From a virus: DNA of 25,845 nucleotides. The notes beneath the pieces were generated by a model, which ran no database searches, was not told where the DNA came from, and was given only the letters and a program-made list of their open reading frames with translations. Shown here piece by piece: positions 6,223-23,495 of the stretch (position 1 is its first letter; each line of letters starts with the position of its first letter). Made by a program: the position numbers and the translations under genes. The stretch covers positions 1 through 25,845 of IMG/VR virus record IMGVR_UViG_3300043446_002271; one strand, given 5' to 3'.

Positions 6223-7779
6223 ATGGCAAACTATCCAATCAGCAATGTAACGCGGCGCGTTGTCTACACTGGCTCTGCCGGTGTTGGTCCGTATGCGTTC
6301 AGCTTTGAGATCATCGAGAACACGGACATTGCCGTGTACAAGAATGATGTGCTGCTGACACTGACCACCAACTACACGGTGACGATCAATGCCAATGGCA
6401 CTGGCTCGGTCACTCTGGTAAGCGCAGCCACCAGCGCTGACAACATCACGATTGTCGGGGCCAGGGCAGTAGAGCGCACCACTGACTTCTCGACTGGTGG
6501 TGATCTGTTTGCCAACACTATCAACGAGGAACTGGACAGTGAGGTGATCCTGATCCAGCAGGTGGCCGAGTCTAATGACCGTGCGATCAAGGCTCCTGTC
6601 ACCGATCCGACCACGATTGACATGACTCTGCCAGCCAAGGCCACTCGCGCCTACAAGTTGCTGGCATTCGACGCTGACGGTAACCCGATTGCTGATGAGC
6701 ATATTGGAACAAACCGCGGCAACTGGGCCACATCGACGGTTTACTATGTGCGCGATCTGGTGAAGGACACCAGCAACAGCAACATCTATCAGTGCATTGT
6801 CGAACATACCTCGACAGGCTCGCAGCCGATCAGCACAAACGCAGATGTTGCCAAGTGGAGTCTGGTGGTCAATGCGGCTGCTGCTGCTGCAAGCGCTGCG
6901 GCGGCTGCGGTCAGCGAAACCAATGCTGCTGCATCTGCAACGCTGGCTAACGACTGGGCTACCAAGACATCTGGCCCTGTTGCTGGTGGCGAGTACTCTG
7001 CCAAGTACCATGCAACGGCAGCATCTTCCAGCGCGTCTACGGCTTCCACAGCGGCCACCAATGCCGTCAATGCACAGACTGCTGCTGAGTCTGCAAGAGA
7101 TGCGACATTGTCTGCGTATGACAGCTTTGATGATCGCTACCTTGGAACGAAGACTAGCGATCCAACGCTAGACAATGACGGCAATGCTCTGGTTGCTGGC
7201 GCTCTGTATTTCAACAGCGTCAGCGGAGCCATGAAGGTCTATACCGGCAGCGCCTGGGTTGCTGCCTATGTCTCTGGTACTGGATTCCTGACCACCACCA
7301 ACAATCTCTCCGACCTTACTGATGCATCAGTAGCCAGGACCAACCTTGGTCTTGGTTCAGCTGCAACAATGACAGGTCCGTCAGGGACAATTGTTGGGAC
7401 GACAGACACACAAGAGTTGACAAATAAAACACTCACTAATAACACGGTAAAAAACTACACCGAAAGCGTTGTTGCGATTGGCACTGTTACATCAACCAAC
7501 ACCATCGCGCTGACGAATGGAACGGTTCAAACCGCAACGCTAACAGCTTCGACGGCTTGCACGTTCACGATGCCCACGGCAACCGCTGGTAAGTCTTTTG
7601 TCTTGTTGCTCAAGCAAGCAGCTTCGACGGGTAACGGTACTGCGACGTTTACCGGCGTTAAGTGGGGTACTGCGGGTGCTCCGACGATTACCGCAACAGC
7701 CGGAAAAATGGACATTCTGACCTTCATCGCTGACGGAACGAATTGGTACGGCAGCATCGCACAGGGATACACCCCATAA
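6223..7779 (+). CDS. Tail fibre protein with T7-type N-terminal anchor
   Basis: This is a 518-aa protein. The N-terminus (about 1-150: MANYPISNVTRRVVYTGSAG, YAFSFEIIENTDIAVYKND, later TTDFSTGGDLFANTINEELD) matches the pattern of the T7 gp17 tail-attachment domain. A chitin-binding-like WATSTVYYVRDLV segment follows at about 167-179, then an Ala/Ser-rich coiled coil (about 216-300), beta-rich repeats with NLSDLTDASVARTNLGLGSA, and a C-terminus ending GTNWYGSIAQGYTP typical of phage fibre tips. In the family the N-terminus binds the tail hub and the distal part binds the host surface. The start follows a 16-nt gap after the large ejection gene. Its stop overlaps the start of the Gly-rich adhesin (TAATG), suggesting the two form one host-recognition unit. 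Confidence 0.85.
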   Translation: MANYPISNVTRRVVYTGSAGVGPYAFSFEIIENTDIAVYKNDVLLTLTTNYTVTINANGTGSVTLVSAATSADNITIVGARAVERTTDFSTGGDLFANTINEELDSEVILIQQVAESNDRAIKAPVTDPTTIDMTLPAKATRAYKLLAFDADGNPIADEHIGTNRGNWATSTVYYVRDLVKDTSNSNIYQCIVEHTSTGSQPISTNADVAKWSLVVNAAAAAASAAAAAVSETNAAASATLANDWATKTSGPVAGGEYSAKYHATAASSSASTASTAATNAVNAQTAAESARDATLSAYDSFDDRYLGTKTSDPTLDNDGNALVAGALYFNSVSGAMKVYTGSAWVAAYVSGTGFLTTTNNLSDLTDASVARTNLGLGSAATMTGPSGTIVGTTDTQELTNKTLTNNTVKNYTESVVAIGTVTSTNTIALTNGTVQTATLTASTACTFTMPTATAGKSFVLLLKQAASTGNGTATFTGVKWGTAGAPTITATAGKMDILTFIADGTNWYGSIAQGYTP

Positions 7780-9488
7780 TGTTTGCAGCTAAAAACTTTT
7801 TCCTAGCTGGCGGTGGCATTGCTACGGTTTCTGCTGATTACTTAGTAATTGCAGGTGGCGGTGGCGGTGGCGGGACAAATAATCAAAATTATGGAGGCGG
7901 CGGTGGCGCTGGTGGTTATAAATATTTAACTTCACAAAGTTTAAATGTTGGCACAGCTTATGCAGTCACAGTCGGTGCTGGTGGAGCAGCAGCAACAGTT
8001 GGCAGCAATTCGGTTTTTTCATCAACCACATCAACAGGCGGCGGTCGAGGCGGTGCTTATGAAGGGCCTGCAGGTGGCGATGGCGGCTCAGGCGGTGGCG
8101 GTGGCGGTGGATTAAATACGTATGCAACTGGAGGTTCGGCTTCACCAAGTGGGCAAGGAAATAATGGTGGTGCAGGAGATGCTGCAGGGCCTCAACCTGC
8201 TGCGGGCGGTGGCGGTGGTTCTAATGCTGTTGGTTCTGCCGGTGTTTCAAATTCTTCCGGCGGTGCAGGTGGCGCAGGAACTGCAAACAGCATAACCGGA
8301 TCAAGCGTCACTTATGCGGGTGGCGGTGGCGGTGGAGGAAGTATTGGAGTTCCCGGCGGCGCTGGTGGTTCTGGCGGCGGTGGCGCAGGTGGAACTCAAA
8401 CTGTAAGTGGAACAGCGGGAACGGCAAATCGCGGAGGTGGTGGTGGTGGTGGCGGCGGCTCAAACGGTGGCGCAACAATTGGCGGCGCTGGTGGTTCGGG
8501 CATTGTTATAGTAAAAATCCCCGATACTGTTGGCGCAAGTTTTTCAAGTGGAGTTACTTCACTTTTGAATACAAGTTCTGGTTATAACATTTATTCAATA
8601 ACTGCCACAAGTTCAACCAGCGAAACATTGACATTAACCACAGGAACATTTAGTGCAGATTTTTTAGTAATTGCGGGTGGTGCAGGTGGTGGTGGTTGGG
8701 GTGGTGGTGGAGCAGGTGGCTTTAGAACATCTGCCGGAACTAGCGGCGGCGGTAGTTCTGCGGAATCATCATTAACATTATCCAAAGGGATTCAATACAC
8801 TCTTACTGTTGGAGGTGGTGGAGCAGGAAGCGGCAGCGTTTCAGCAAAAGGAACAAACGGATCAAATTCTGTTTTTAGTACGATTACTTCAACAGGCGGC
8901 GGTGGTGGCGCAGGAGATGGTTCGGGCGTTGGTGACGGAGCTAGTGGCGGCTCGGGTGGTGGTGCGGGTTGGGATAACAACACTCAAAGATCAGGAGGAT
9001 CGGGCACAGCAAATCAAGGTTATGCGGGCGGTTCATCAAATACAGCAGAAAACAATGGCGGCGGCGGCGGTGGTGCTGGCGCGGTGGGTGACGCAGGTTT
9101 AAGCGGTGTTGGCGGCAACGGAGGAAATGGCGTTGCTTCATCAATTACGGGTTCGTCAGTTACTTATGCCGGTGGTGGTGGCGGTGGCGTTGCTGGCTCG
9201 CCGGGAACGCGATCAACTGGCGGGACAGGAGGCGGTGGTGCTGGTGGTGTAAATTTAACAACTGTTGCAGTAGCTGGAACAGCAAACACAGGTGGTGGCG
9301 GTGGTGGTATGCCAAGCAATCCTTGGGGCGCAGCAGGTGGTAGTGGTTTTATTGTTATAAAAATACCATCAACAATTTCTGCAAATTTTACTTCCGGCGT
9401 AACACAAACCAAAACTACATCCGGCGGTTTCAACATTTATTCTGTAACAGCCACTTCCACTACCAGCGAAAAAGTAGTGTTTGCATAA
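7779..9488 (+). CDS. Glycine-rich tail adhesin with two tandem Gly-rich units
   Basis: This is a 569-aa protein starting at the ATG at 7779, which overlaps the fibre stop (TAATG); a longer in-frame start at 7743 lies inside the fibre gene and is unlikely. It consists of two similar units of about 275 aa. Each opens with SAD(Y/F)LVIAGG (about residues 18 and 291), runs through long poly-Gly loops, then closes with GSG(I/F)(I/V)VIKIP and a beta segment with (Y/F)NIYS(I/V)TATS. Gly-rich domains of this kind occur at phage fibre tips. By analogy with the T-even S16 gp38 adhesin, they may pack as polyglycine-II helices with variable receptor-binding loops. Codons use more A/T than the neighbouring genes. 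A receptor-binding role is inferred. Confidence 0.8.
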   Translation: MFAAKNFFLAGGGIATVSADYLVIAGGGGGGGTNNQNYGGGGGAGGYKYLTSQSLNVGTAYAVTVGAGGAAATVGSNSVFSSTTSTGGGRGGAYEGPAGGDGGSGGGGGGGLNTYATGGSASPSGQGNNGGAGDAAGPQPAAGGGGGSNAVGSAGVSNSSGGAGGAGTANSITGSSVTYAGGGGGGGSIGVPGGAGGSGGGGAGGTQTVSGTAGTANRGGGGGGGGGSNGGATIGGAGGSGIVIVKIPDTVGASFSSGVTSLLNTSSGYNIYSITATSSTSETLTLTTGTFSADFLVIAGGAGGGGWGGGGAGGFRTSAGTSGGGSSAESSLTLSKGIQYTLTVGGGGAGSGSVSAKGTNGSNSVFSTITSTGGGGGAGDGSGVGDGASGGSGGGAGWDNNTQRSGGSGTANQGYAGGSSNTAENNGGGGGGAGAVGDAGLSGVGGNGGNGVASSITGSSVTYAGGGGGGVAGSPGTRSTGGTGGGGAGGVNLTTVAVAGTANTGGGGGGMPSNPWGAAGGSGFIVIKIPSTISANFTSGVTQTKTTSGGFNIYSVTATSTTSEKVVFA

Positions 9489-19821: not shown

Positions 19822-19959
19822 AATAATCCTCTTTCAGGGTTAGCGCACTACAGGGTGCAGTGCATGGACAGCACAATAGCATGCTTTGTTCCGTGTGCAA
19901 AAGATATTTACTGGAACATTGATCTAGATCAAGAGTGGCCACTAACATAGAATCCTGAC
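19822..19959. promoter_or_regulatory. Divergent control region between 86-aa protein and HTH gene
   Basis: This is a 138-bp gene-free region. Rightward, TAGAAT at 19948-19953 resembles a -10 and would place the start of transcription at or next to the A of ATG 19960; no ribosome site stands before that ATG. Leftward, TTGTGC and TGTAGT with an 18-bp spacer (about 19886-19857) are a possible promoter. The palindrome at 19919 lies where a rightward -35 would be. Confidence 0.45.
19919..19932. promoter_or_regulatory. Perfect 14-bp palindrome matching the FNR-family consensus
   Basis: TTGATCTAGATCAA is a perfect palindrome and fits TTGAT-N4-ATCAA exactly. With the adjacent GA it shares 14 of 16 bases with the box at 16960. 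Its centre is about 34 bp before the expected rightward start, where a bound protein could repress or activate. It may be a host FNR/Anr-type site or an operator of a phage regulator. Confidence 0.5.
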
Positions 19960-20556
19960 ATGACGGCCTTCCAGATACCCGAACAGCAAGCGCTGGCAGA
20001 GCATGAATTCCAAGATCGGCGCAGGTTTTCGATTGTGCCGATCCGCGCGGCCAATGACCGCAGACTTACGGCCGGGACATGGCGCACCCTGCTGGCGCTT
20101 TGCGCTTATTCCAGCAAAGGCGGCATTGTTTGGGTGTCGCAAAAGCGCATCGGCCAAGACATCGGGATATCGCAGCCAGCAGTGCATCGGCAGATCGCCA
20201 GGTTGAAAGCTTGGGGCTATCTTGAACGGATCAGCCACAGCAAAAAAGGGGTCAAGGCCGAGACAATCCGCATCCTGTATGCGCCGGAATTACAGGCCGA
20301 GGATGCGACCGCGATCGCAGGAGAAACACCGATTCACCTACAGAACAAAGGGGAAAGCATGAGCAAGCGCAAGCGCAAGGCCGATAACAGTCATTCCGTA
20401 ATGCAAACTGCTGTTTCACAATCCGGGATTGAACTTGTTGATTCTTCAATCAATCAACAGTCAGCCATTGACGCGCTGGCCGCGCAGTACCGGGCGGAAG
20501 GCCTGCCAGTGCCGAGCGCCGAGCGCCTGCTGGCCGAGATTCAAGGTATCAAGTAG
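19960..20556 (+). CDS. Helix-turn-helix protein, possible replication initiator or early regulator
   Basis: This is a 198-aa protein. Residues 20-110 show an HTH_36/Rep-type winged helix: RRFSIVPIRAANDRRLTAGT, WRTLLALCAYSS, then VSQKRIGQDIGISQPAVHRQ (about 59-78), RLKAWGYLERI and a wing ending TIRILYAP. The C-terminal part is basic and polar (MSKRKRKADNS) with a helical end. Proteins of this type start replication in phages and plasmids or act as repressors. The adjoining 677-bp gene-free segment with palindromes supports a replication-initiator role. The -10-like TAGAAT just upstream suggests a leaderless transcript. Confidence 0.65.
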   Translation: MTAFQIPEQQALAEHEFQDRRRFSIVPIRAANDRRLTAGTWRTLLALCAYSSKGGIVWVSQKRIGQDIGISQPAVHRQIARLKAWGYLERISHSKKGVKAETIRILYAPELQAEDATAIAGETPIHLQNKGESMSKRKRKADNSHSVMQTAVSQSGIELVDSSINQQSAIDALAAQYRAEGLPVPSAERLLAEIQGIK

Positions 20557-20567
20557 CGCTGTTCCGT

Positions 20568-20597
20568 CTGCATCCGTTCGTTAGCATCCGGATGCAG
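20568..20597. repeat. Inverted repeat after the HTH gene
   Basis: CTGCATCCG and CGGATGCAG form perfect 9-bp arms around a 12-nt loop. Inside, GCATCCGGATGC (20584-20595) is itself a perfect 12-bp palindrome, and GCATCCG occurs twice as a direct repeat. It begins 11 bp after the HTH stop. No T-run follows directly, so a protein-binding site or RNA processing structure is more likely than a terminator. Confidence 0.5.
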
Positions 20598-20796
20598 TGC
20601 CGGTAGCCTTGTTTTCACCCTGCCGCAGCGCCGGTGGTGTATCGATTCAGCGGCCAGCGCCGGGGTGGCGATCGGGTGGCGAGGCCGTCGATTCCGCAGC
20701 GCAGCGCGACCCACCCTTGCCCCTCCCCCGGTCCCGCCTGTGCGGTGGGGACTTCGCTTAATTTTTCCCCAGTTTTCCTAGGTGTAGGGTTTTTAG

Positions 20797-20823
20797 AACC
20801 TTATTTTTAAAGATAAGGTTTTT
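20797..20823 (+). terminator. Possible rightward intrinsic terminator (A/T-rich stem)
   Basis: AACCTTAT and ATAAGGTT form perfect 8-bp arms around an 8-nt loop, and the right arm runs into TTTTT. It lies 240 bp after the HTH gene. The stem is A/T-rich and therefore weak. It may instead be part of an A/T-rich unwinding element of an origin. Confidence 0.45.
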
Positions 20824-20925
20824 GAGTGCTTGTTGTTGGCACGGTGCTGGAGTTACCGAGGTATGAGGTGTGAGCGCGTTGCGCTGTGTGTCTACGAGGG
20901 ACTGAGCTTCGTTGAAGCAAAAAGA

Positions 20926-20964
20926 ACCTCACCCGTATATACGGGGTGTTTCCTCGAGTGAGGT
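20926..20964. repeat. Nested palindrome
   Basis: CCCGTATATACGGG (20932-20945) is a perfect 14-bp palindrome. It lies within outer arms ACCTCA (20926-20931) and TGAGGT (20959-20964). Its function is unknown; it could be an operator, origin element or packaging signal. Confidence 0.5.
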
Positions 20965-21164
20965 GGCGCTCTGGTTTATCGCTTGCTACTGGCATCTTTG
21001 CCCAGCTGGGTTTTTCGCTGGCCCGATCCTGTATGGAAGGAACCACTTGCCCCATGCGCTGCGTTTATCTGAGTCTGTCGCGCCTACATTCTCAAGGGCT
21101 GGGTTATGGCCCCCGAATGACCACAGTGTAACCGATCTACAGTTTCGTGCAAGCTTTTTTTGAG

Positions 21165-21193
21165 TTGCATGTGATATACCAACCGGGTAGACT
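21165..21193 (+). promoter_or_regulatory. Possible sigma70 promoter before the SSB-like/terminase operon
   Basis: TTGCAT at 21165-21170 and TAGACT at 21188-21193 have a 17-bp spacer. Transcription would start near 21200 and give a leader of about 34 nt before ATG 21234, with GGAGAG as ribosome site. It is the only such match directly before the rightward packaging operon. Confidence 0.45.
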
Positions 21194-21233
21194 GATTGGG
21201 CAGTACGGAGACAACAACTACAGGAGAGTTTAA

Positions 21234-21509
21234 ATGGCTTATGAGTTGCGGCCAGGGCAGGGCACTGCCTTTATGAACAAGGACAAGCGCGAGGAGTGGC
21301 ATGCGGATTTCCGGGGGGAGATTCTGCTCCCGGACGGGACGCTGTGCTACATGGATGTGCGGCCGGGGAAGACCAAAGCTGGCGATGATTGGTACTCGGT
21401 CAAGATCGGCAAGCCCAAGATGCCCAAGCCGAGCGAGCATAGCCAGGCCAAGGCCAATGGCTACCAGCCGGGGTCAATGGATGATCTGAAGGATGACATC
21501 CCTTGGTAA
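21234..21509 (+). CDS. SSB-like small protein with acidic DDIPW tail
   Basis: This 91-aa protein opens MAYELRPGQGTAFMNKDKRE, followed by strand-like segments (WHADFRGEILLPDGTLCYMD, then DDWYSVKIGKPK) that suggest a small five-stranded, OB-like barrel. It has a polar linker (about 65-80) and ends DDLKDDIPW. That tail resembles the acidic C-terminal tip of bacterial SSB (DDIPF), which recruits repair and replication proteins. A single-strand-binding role is therefore inferred, not shown. It lies between the candidate origin and TerS, whose start overlaps its stop. Confidence 0.5.
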   Translation: MAYELRPGQGTAFMNKDKREEWHADFRGEILLPDGTLCYMDVRPGKTKAGDDWYSVKIGKPKMPKPSEHSQAKANGYQPGSMDDLKDDIPW

Positions 21510-21943
21510 GGCCAAAGCAGGTACTGCCAAGCCTGGAGGGGTGGGGCGGTGTCCGGTCTGTGCATCAGAGACTCAAGCGGTCCGAGACTCTGATCCAGAA
21601 CCGGGAGGCGGTCAGCTACGCTCTACTCAGCATGGCAAATACCAAGCTGACGGACATCATGTCATGGGATGAGCAGGGCAATATCCAGGTCAAGCCATCC
21701 GATCAGATACCCGAACACGCCCTGCATGCCATCAAAAGCATCAAGGTCAACGAGCGCACCGACAAGAATGGGGAGGTGCAGCGAACGCTGGACATCGAAC
21801 TATTCGATAAAGTGGGCGTGTTGCGGCTGCTGGCCAAGGCATCCGGCCTGCTGGACAACAACAATGATGACGAAAAGCCGTCTGTCATTGGCATCCATGT
21901 CCAAGCGCCGGAAGTCATCGATGTAGAAAGCAACAATGGCTAA
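21503..21943 (+). CDS. Terminase small subunit (TerS)
   Basis: The reading begins with TTG 21503, preceded by AAGGA about 10 nt upstream and by an in-frame stop at 21494; a GTG at 21560 is the alternative. The 146-aa product has GWGGVRSVHQRLKRS (about 13-27), then LTDIMSWDEQGN, VKPSDQIPEHALHAIKSIKV (about 63-82), a beta strand and FDKVGVLRLLAKASGLLD. This matches the central and C-terminal parts of phage small terminases, which recognise the packaging site. The usual N-terminal helix-turn-helix seems mostly missing. It overlaps TerL by 8 nt. Confidence 0.8.
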   Translation: MVRPKQVLPSLEGWGGVRSVHQRLKRSETLIQNREAVSYALLSMANTKLTDIMSWDEQGNIQVKPSDQIPEHALHAIKSIKVNERTDKNGEVQRTLDIELFDKVGVLRLLAKASGLLDNNNDDEKPSVIGIHVQAPEVIDVESNNG

Positions 21944-23495
21944 GACGGCAGATAGGTCAGAGAAGTCAATCGGCGGCATGGGTCTGAATCTGGACTTCAG
22001 ACGCTCTCCCAAGGTCTGGGAATTCCTGCAAAGCAACGCTTTTGTCCGCGGGATGATGGGACCGGTGGGTTCTGGCAAGTCATACGCCTGCGCTGCCGAG
22101 ATAATGATGCGCGCCGTGCGCCAGAAACCGTCACCGATCGACGGAATCCGGTACAGCCGCTGGGCAATCGTGCGAAACAGCTACCCCATGCTGCGAACCA
22201 CCACGCTCAAGACATGGATTGACCTCTTTCCGGAAGCCACATTCGGGCCAATTCACTACACGCCGCCCATTACCCATCATATTCGCCTGCCAGCCAGGGG
22301 CGATGCGGCCGGAATTGACTGCGAAGTCATCTTTCTGGCCCTTGACCAGCCAAAAGATGTCCGAAAACTGCTGTCGCTGGAGTTGACCGGGGCCTGGGTG
22401 AACGAGGCGCGCGAGTTGCCCAAGGCAGTGATCGATGGTCTGACCCACCGTGTTGGCCGCTACCCCACCAAGCGGGACGGCGGCGCGACTTGGTCCGGCA
22501 TCTGGATGGACACCAACCCGATGGATGACGATCACTGGTGGTTCAAGCTGGCCGAGACTGAAAAGCTGACCGGACCGTATGCCTGGAAGTTCTTCCGTCA
22601 GCCAGGCGGCGTGATCCCCGTCAGTTCCGACGATCTGCCCGAGATGCCAGAGGCCAATGACCACATCTACTCTGCCAGCAAGTGGTGGAAGGTCAACCCC
22701 AAGGCCGAGAATCTGAACAATCTTCCACCCGGATACTACTTGCAGATGCTGGGCGGCAAGAACCTGGACTGGATCAAGTGCTACGCCGGTGGCGAGTACA
22801 CCTATGTTCAGGAAGGCAGACCTGTCTGGCCCGAATACGAGGATGGCAGCATGTCCGGAGATGTCGAGCCGGAGCAGGGAATTCCGATCCAGATCGGTCT
22901 TGACTTCGGTCTGACACCCGCGGCTACCGTGGGCCAGCGGCTACCCAATGGGCGCTGGATTGTCCTGCATGAGATCGTCACCTTCGACATGGGACTCGAG
23001 CGCTTCGGCCAACAACTACTGGCTGAAATGAACCAGCGCTATCCGGGATTCGAGTTGATGATCTGGGGCGATCCGGCGGGTATGGCGCGCGATGCCATCT
23101 ACGAGGTGACCGCCTTTGACCACCTGCGAACCCTGGGTCTAAAGGCGCAGCCCACTGCCAGCAACGACTTCAAGGTGCGCCGGGAGGCCGCGGCCGCTCC
23201 CATGCAGCGACTGATCGGCGGCAAGCCTGGGCTGATCGTCAGCAAGACCTGCAAGCTGCTGCGAAAGGCGCTGTCAGGTGGCTACCACTTCAAGCGCATC
23301 GCGGTGGGTGCTGGGCAAGAGCGGTTCAAGGATGCGCCGAACAAGAACGAACACTCGCACATTGGCGATTCCTTTGGCTACCTGATGCTGGGCGGCGGCG
23401 AGTACAACCGGATGGTTCGCAAGCCAAGCTACAATACGCCGGCCATTGGCAGCGCTGTTGCGAAAACGGACTTCGATGTCTTTGCTGCCAGTTGA
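21936..23495 (+). CDS. Terminase large subunit (TerL)
   Basis: This 519-aa protein has both terminase activities. ATPase: Walker A GPVGSGKS (42-49) and a Walker B-type LTGAWVNEARE with Glu157. Nuclease: acidic residues in GLDFGLTPA (Asp323), IWGDPAGMA (Asp379) and HIGDSFGYL (Asp478), the usual three-Asp RNase H-like set. It pumps DNA into the procapsid through the portal and cuts concatemers. Length is normal for the family. The start lies 8 nt inside TerS, and the end overlaps the gp13-like gene by 20 nt. Confidence 0.95.
   Translation: MAKTADRSEKSIGGMGLNLDFRRSPKVWEFLQSNAFVRGMMGPVGSGKSYACAAEIMMRAVRQKPSPIDGIRYSRWAIVRNSYPMLRTTTLKTWIDLFPEATFGPIHYTPPITHHIRLPARGDAAGIDCEVIFLALDQPKDVRKLLSLELTGAWVNEARELPKAVIDGLTHRVGRYPTKRDGGATWSGIWMDTNPMDDDHWWFKLAETEKLTGPYAWKFFRQPGGVIPVSSDDLPEMPEANDHIYSASKWWKVNPKAENLNNLPPGYYLQMLGGKNLDWIKCYAGGEYTYVQEGRPVWPEYEDGSMSGDVEPEQGIPIQIGLDFGLTPAATVGQRLPNGRWIVLHEIVTFDMGLERFGQQLLAEMNQRYPGFELMIWGDPAGMARDAIYEVTAFDHLRTLGLKAQPTASNDFKVRREAAAAPMQRLIGGKPGLIVSKTCKLLRKALSGGYHFKRIAVGAGQERFKDAPNKNEHSHIGDSFGYLMLGGGEYNRMVRKPSYNTPAIGSAVAKTDFDVFAAS

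Follow-up and report, generated by a model that had tools for sequence, protein, structure and literature searches.

The window, i.e., the whole stretch of DNA that was analysed, comprises the 25,845 bases of an IMG/VR virus record for which no completeness estimate is listed. A PHROGs search of the window revealed matches to an internal virion protein, tail proteins, an endolysin, RecT-like and RecE-like proteins, a serine recombinase, an O-like initiator and TerL. Repeats of a GGTGGCGGTGGC-type unit lie at 7850-9247, within a long ORF (7743-9488). The initiator-like ORF runs to 20556, and the ORF that follows it begins at 21234. The 677-bp segment between them (20557-21233), which the initial annotation had described as gene-free, is a real gap, as none of the seven mechanical ORFs in or across it matched PHROGs and no ORF has family support. 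Searches of the window for tRNAs and Rfam RNAs found nothing. The features of the gap and its flanks are listed below.

19960-20556, plus strand: O-like replication initiator gene (phrog_391, E 1.8e-11, and others), convergent with the RNA
20568-20597, no strand: inverted repeat with 9-bp arms, 3' of the initiator gene; not conserved
20663-20682, no strand: two GGGTGGCGA repeats, 11 bp apart, iteron-like, weak by themselves, at the location of DnaA boxes in relatives
20710-20729, minus strand: G-rich tract GGGGGAGGGGCAAGGGTGGG (RNA sense), G-quadruplex-like
20760-20770, minus strand: GGGGAAAAATT motif (RNA sense), recognisable in relatives including L030, L033 and L036
20797-20820, no strand: A/T-rich hairpin, recognisable in relatives
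20860-20923, minus strand: lineage-specific 3' extension, a U-run (20919-20923) followed by conserved sequence to about 20860
20924-21117, minus strand: structured noncoding RNA, core of about 190 nt, identified by covariation, relatives and a covariance-model match of its 54-nt core (21060-21113)
20925-20945, minus strand: hairpin P1 (the palindrome at 20932-20945) with the conserved 3' motif CGGGUGAGGUU
20965-20969, minus strand: 3' strand GCGCC of pseudoknot PKa, also paired in the single-sequence MFE fold
20974-20980, minus strand: GAUAAAC copy B, conserved in 21 of 22 alignment rows (L124 differs or is misaligned)
21063-21069, minus strand: GAUAAAC copy A, with AUAAAC invariant in 22 rows and a variable first base
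21070-21094, minus strand: hairpin P3, whose loop carries the 5' strand of PKa
21080-21084, minus strand: 5' strand GGCGC of PKa, in the P3 loop
21096-21113, minus strand: 5' hairpin P4, stem GGGC/GCCC and a conserved 9-nt loop, CAUAACCCA
21125-21152, minus strand: probable sigma70-type promoter, -35 TTGCAC (21152-21147), 16 nt, -10 TACACT (21130-21125)
21936-23495, plus strand: TerL (PHROGs)

The initial annotation had proposed that the gap combines a replication origin, a packaging site and a small RNA, and had listed several sequence features in it. The perfect palindrome CCCGTATATACGGG (20932-20945), the 9-bp-arm inverted repeat (20568-20597), the A/T-rich hairpin (20797-20820) and the pyrimidine runs (20710-20729, the complement of the G-rich tract) are all present. 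The A/T-rich hairpin is a possible terminator of the initiator transcript or a possible AT-rich unwinding element. The promoter of the initial annotation was not found in a strict scan of both strands (0 found, 0.8 expected), but a weaker minus-strand site was recognised by reading at 21152-21125. Conservation, which it had named as a check on the palindromes, holds for the one at 20932-20945, which lies within a conserved block, but not for the inverted repeat at 20568-20597, which is poorly conserved (0.58 and 0.54 in 20-bp bins). Terminator-like hairpins occur in the gap at the rate expected by chance (2 found, 2.0 expected), and the single-sequence folding energy of 20860-21140 is ordinary (z -0.29 for the plus strand and -1.35 for the minus strand). 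The evidence that goes beyond chance comes from conservation across phages and from covariation, neither of which was visible to the initial annotation.

A blastn search with 19900-22000 against 50,697 phage records returned a single match, MW202825.1, with 74% identity over 108 bases. The matching region is noncoding in both sequences and unannotated in MW202825, and beyond the alignment the two share more short motifs. A 17-mer from the element was found in at least 119 IMG/VR stretches, nearly all of which share a longer common element and the upstream motifs; L005 and L075 were chance hits in coding sequence. The loci were gathered by exact or near-exact patterns, and the conserved core is thus partly fixed by the search itself. 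After removal of L001, L003, L005, L075 and L125 (a copy of the window, another part of a record, and coding chance hits), 121 loci remained for the analysis of context, in which the gene calls are mechanical ORFs. A second scan, for which one stem pair was altered, recovered the compensatory stems that were to be expected (GGAC/GUCC, GGUC/GACC and CGCC/GGCG); 8 of its 21 matches (L127, L135, L136, L138, L140, L143, L145 and L146) were dropped as chance matches in coding sequence. A covariance model of the P4-P3-GAUAAAC core (R1), built from 30 sequences including the window, matched the window at 21060-21113 with 71.4 bits and an E-value of 1.8e-21, the E-values of R1 being rough.

Rfam 15 gave no hit at gathering thresholds in the window or in 13 loci, 12 of them RNA-bearing, and its best E-value for 20500-21300 was 2.9, for an unrelated lncRNA family. 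Neither the GenBank plasmids nor, with four other variants as queries, the GenBank phages gave any blastn match. The 17-mer core and its shorter forms appeared in no paper in a search of the available literature text, within the limits of word matching, and the portions of text returned by general literature searches held no description of the RNA. The repeat RNAs of PMC13142463, judged from the description in the accessible part of that source, looked unrelated to the gap RNA.

Among nine close relatives, identity in 20-bp bins was 0.38-0.69 over 20400-20759, 0.80-1.00 over 20860-21119 (0.93-0.98 across 20860-20919) and 0.63-0.91 beyond. In the order of the RNA, the conserved parts are P4, P3, GAUAAAC, P2 (variable inner hairpins), the second GAUAAAC, the PKa partner, P1 and CGGGUGAGGUU. 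Two alignments, A2 and A5, were made with 21 and 22 members, respectively, picked from the loci with a recognisable end motif; 28 loci without this motif were excluded, and some of the 31 representatives are absent from the alignment. The first structure (21 members) had a covariation score of 0.488, compared with 0.130±0.016 for shuffled controls and at most 0.146 for slid ones. The score was 0.532 against 0.122 for the 54-nt core in 30 members, and 0.554 against 0.168±0.018 (shuffled) and at most 0.108 (slid) for the minus-strand alignment of 22 members, in which 83.5% of the cells are paired. Two count measures for the 22 members lay within the shuffles (pairs with changes on both sides, 139/500; further pair types, 169/500). 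Changes on both sides were seen in all seven pairs of P3 (90.5% of cells paired) and all five pairs of PKa (85.3% paired), and RNAalifold recovered PKa and P4 independently. P4 does not vary in the first set, having served as the search key; its stem covaries in the second set. P2 exists in two registers and is just 59% paired, and in P1 the loop and the 5' arm vary across phages while the 3' arm is nearly invariant. Compensatory changes in the alignments thus support P3, the long-range pseudoknot and, weakly, the middle helix.

A further pairing, PKb, between AACC and GGUU of the P4 loop, was considered and dropped. It is fully paired on the plus strand partly through G-U pairs that become A-C on the minus strand, and it fails in some Burkholderiaceae variants. 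A coding function was also rejected, with an open frame in at most 3 of 21 members, lengths that vary out of frame and no PHROGs match. Taken together, the results strongly support the gap as the site of a noncoding RNA gene that belongs to a real and previously undescribed family, and we hold this conclusion with little doubt. The small RNA of the initial annotation is thereby backed more firmly than it had been proposed, as a structured family across many phages that is most likely encoded on the minus strand.

We initially modelled the RNA as a plus-strand product with AACCUCACCCG at the 5' end. The promoter statistics, the z-scores of the folds and, in some relatives, the closeness of the initiator AUG reversed this assignment. 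Promoter-like sites next to P4 on the minus strand scored 7.91, against 7.21±0.16 for shuffled sequences (z +4.4, 43 nonredundant loci), while those next to P1 on the plus strand scored 6.99 against 7.15±0.18 (z -0.9, 37 loci). A -10-like hexamer ends exactly 9 nt before P4 in 10 of the 43 loci, where 1.26 are expected, and 7-9 nt before P4 in 14, where the shuffled mean is 3.58 and the maximum of 2,000 shuffles is 11. Thirteen of the 43 were flagged by pattern as having an upstream terminator-like hairpin instead; the other 30 comprise 14 with the fixed -10 and 16 without it. In the window the -10 is a few nucleotides further from P4, as in L004 and L021, and the same site was scored in the close relative L021. 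The mean fold z is -0.70 for the minus strand, i.e., better than shuffled, and +0.32 for the plus strand. The counts of G-U and A-C pairs in P3 and PKa (3 and 5) did not separate the strands. From promoter placement and fold z-scores, we take the folded RNA to be the minus strand with moderate to high confidence. Leftward transcription from its own promoter, predicted to start at hairpin P4, is well supported, and the promoter position implies a 5' end near 21117 in the window.

About 12 members (among them L006, L017, L019, L041, L047, L061, L074, L092, L104 and L107) carry a second element directly upstream in the RNA sense, which is absent from the window. It is a long hairpin ending in a U-run, with a loop able to pair with the preceding sequence (e.g., L092, L104 and L017), and the members flagged with it have no fixed -10 box. 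This element may terminate the upstream operon or may represent a second domain of the RNA.

The neighbours of the RNA were then compared across the 121 loci, with cluster names assigned from reading the sequences. The initiator cluster lies near the RNA in 64 loci, on the RNA strand in 47 and on the opposite strand, as in the window, in 17; it was not seen in the other 57, many of which are short contigs. Other frequent neighbours are a serine recombinase (43 loci), RecT (32) and two TerL clusters (31 and 16), and in some loci the RNA adjoins RecT/exonuclease operons or TerL. The carriers are phages with different terminases and portals. In two Burkholderiaceae loci (L158 and L159), replication-like genes lie on one side of the RNA and TerL-like genes on the other. 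In a freshwater clade (e.g., L007, L009, L012, L016, L020, L062 and L085), the initiator AUG follows the CGGG of the 3' motif by 13-18 nt on the RNA strand. The window and L004 share 39% identity in the initiator beside a nearly identical RNA, and the RNA is therefore not tied to one initiator; an initiator/array cassette was probably exchanged beside the nearly unchanged RNA, as judged from these sequences.

For a Paraburkholderia genome, R1 matches with E<=1e-5 were present in 6 of the 299 genomes of its family and 2 of the 369 of its class, both counts including the genome itself, and among 398 genomes of its phylum it was the only one with a match. Among 300 genomes of the order of a Nitrosomonadales MAG, the MAG was likewise the only one with a match. 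The host-genome searches used strict filters, so these rates are lower bounds. One copy in a Burkholderiaceae genome (L155, near 9948) lies beside genes for a glutaminase and an eCIS-core protein with no recognised phage gene, and is either a remnant or a domesticated copy. Another lies beside a resolvase gene and an ORF that reads as ParA-like. One RNA copy per record was found in nine of the ten records searched. Two diverged copies, about 2 kb apart on the minus strand, occur in one record (L008:9113-9187 and L008:11150-11203).

On the RNA strand downstream of the RNA, the block 20820-20710 consists of the A/T hairpin, GGGGAAAAATT and GGGGGAGGGGCAAGGGTGGG. The same order was found in L004, L021, L046, L077, L101, L114, L117 and L118, and more weakly in L030, L033 and L036, and GAAAAATT with the G-rich block is kept in the window lineage. 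The G-rich tract was rejected as a feature of the whole family, since at least 16 G in 24 nt occur on the RNA strand in 6 of 56 nonredundant loci, compared with 4 of 56 on the opposite strand. In L077, L101, L114 and L117, a large hairpin (CCTAACGCG...CGCGTTAGG) lies downstream of the tract, followed by a T-run (RNA sense) in L077 and L101 and weakly in L114; it is a possible terminator of the RNA transcript.

In three relatives (L004, L046 and L118), seven DnaA boxes with at most one mismatch and 11-14 bp spacing form an array of about 81 bp directly behind the G-rich block. The array lies about 396-496 nt after P4, consists of TTATCCACA and its one-mismatch forms, and adjoins the initiator gene. 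By its sequence it is a good candidate for the origin in these relatives of the window. The window has only the two GGGTGGCGA repeats at the array position, and its DnaA-box matches (11, with 14.67 expected) include none in the gap. The replication origin of the initial annotation thus stands as far as the neighbourhood goes, with an adjoining O-like initiator and three relatives with arrays, but not by an excess of DnaA boxes in the window. The GC-skew check that it had suggested went against it, as the cumulative skew rises from 1.74 to 1.95 with no extremum at the gap, and a skew-based origin was rejected.

Our preferred overall reading, which we regard as close to probable, is a new RNA gene with its own minus-strand promoter that most likely serves the replication module. 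The neighbour pattern, the presence of DnaA arrays in relatives and the G-rich block further downstream favour a role in phage replication, which we propose tentatively. In the window lineage, a transcript initiated at the promoter would cover the folded RNA and the A/T hairpin, enter the G-rich tract and continue towards the array adjoining the initiator. It could hold an RNA-DNA hybrid at the G-rich tract, which could open or prime the origin, and the folded RNA could control or protect the transcript or the hybrid. Such an R-loop or primer mechanism is, on our estimate, unlikely. Somewhat less doubtful is the broader proposal that a new class of pseudoknotted RNA licenses or primes phage replication with exchangeable initiator/array cassettes, and has spread by modular exchange among otherwise dissimilar phages, prophages and other mobile DNA, mainly of Betaproteobacteria. 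Several findings count against a replication role: the 57 loci without the initiator cluster, the lack of DnaA boxes and of a skew extremum in the window, conservation of the RNA while the initiator diverged, the rarity of the G-tract family-wide, the placement beside RecT/exonuclease operons or TerL in some loci, the copy without recognised phage genes and the one beside a resolvase gene and a ParA-like ORF.

Some of these findings would suit a trans-acting RNA that binds a host or phage protein (e.g., RNA polymerase, a nuclease or a ribosomal factor), for which genome position would be irrelevant. A diffusible RNA is favoured because the position is variable and independent of the initiator sequence: neighbours and orientation vary widely, the RNA is conserved beside an initiator diverged to 39% identity, its carrier phages differ in terminase and portal, and one copy has no recognisable phage genes around it. 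The conserved unpaired motifs (GAUAAAC twice and the CAUAACCCA loop) suggest a bound partner. However, the recurrent nearness to the initiator, or placement between replication and packaging modules, and the clade in which the RNA abuts the initiator start codon fit it less well, and we consider this explanation possible though doubtful.

A cis-acting 5' leader, either an element that controls translation or an RNA for processive antitermination like HK022 put, is less likely still. The RNA would start at its promoter, as putL does (PMC9378689), same-strand genes lie downstream in many loci, and in one clade the initiator AUG comes directly after a GUGAGG motif. However, many loci have no nearby same-strand gene, and a single copy was found in 9 of 10 records, compared with two put sites in HK022 according to the same source. 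Placement on the same strand directly upstream of the initiator was seen in the L007/L009/L020 clade but not in the window, L004, L021, L023 or L033, where the next gene is a convergent initiator. The idea that the RNA always serves as the leader of the initiator or a late operon was rejected, as it is true of some clades only.

That the functional form is instead the plus strand or a fold of single-stranded DNA (e.g., a DNA origin or a recombination structure) seems very improbable. Almost all covarying pairs are Watson-Crick (220 cells against 3 G-U in P3 and PKa of A2), which DNA would fit as well as RNA, but promoter positioning is found on the minus strand and not on the plus strand, and the fold z favours the minus strand. 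A packaging RNA or packaging site, as the initial annotation had also envisaged, is most improbable of all: in the window and many relatives the distance between the RNA and TerL is at most about 1 kb, but no evidence for packaging was found, other loci have it far from TerL and the other packaging genes, and it has no resemblance to a testable known pac or cos site.

A compact RNA under strong constraint, widespread among environmental phages but missing from Rfam, points to an RNA-dependent step new to phage biology. Should it act at the origin, replication initiation in phages with O-like initiators would include an RNA component; should it work in trans, the conserved naked motifs would mark a host target. 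What is new is the RNA family, and its mechanism may resemble a known one. The pRNA of phi29 is a phage-encoded structured RNA that forms a ring on the packaging motor, and the gap RNA resembles it in lying near packaging genes in some genomes, but has no Rfam match at all and a position not tied to the terminase. The OOP RNA of lambda is a short antisense RNA whose small gene lies beside the O initiator gene; the gap RNA gene also adjoins an O-like initiator, but differs in its conserved pseudoknotted fold. GOLLD and ROOL are carried by phages. They are described as ornate RNAs in the available part of PMC12286853, whereas the gap RNA is far shorter and has no Rfam match. The put RNA of HK022 lies in the leaders of long early operons. 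It is about 70 nt long with two stem-loops, and has two copies per genome (PMC9378689). Like put, the gap RNA is a phage RNA that would start at a promoter and fold while being made, but it differs from put, with a pseudoknotted core of about 190 nt, usually one copy, often no same-strand operon and, in the window, a convergent next gene. ColE1 RNA II forms a persistent hybrid with DNA, which RNase H cuts to yield a primer. In ColE1, a G-rich stretch upstream of the origin is essential for R-loop formation, and a G-quadruplex at CSBII has been described, according to PMC6317783. Although the G-rich tract is absent from most of the gap-RNA family (present in 6 of 56 nonredundant loci) and an O-like initiator is present, the window and its lineage may resemble ColE1 RNA II and the mitochondrial LSP-CSBII primer RNA in having a probable promoter of their own, a predicted structured transcript and, downstream on the transcript strand, a G-rich stretch near a putative replication start.
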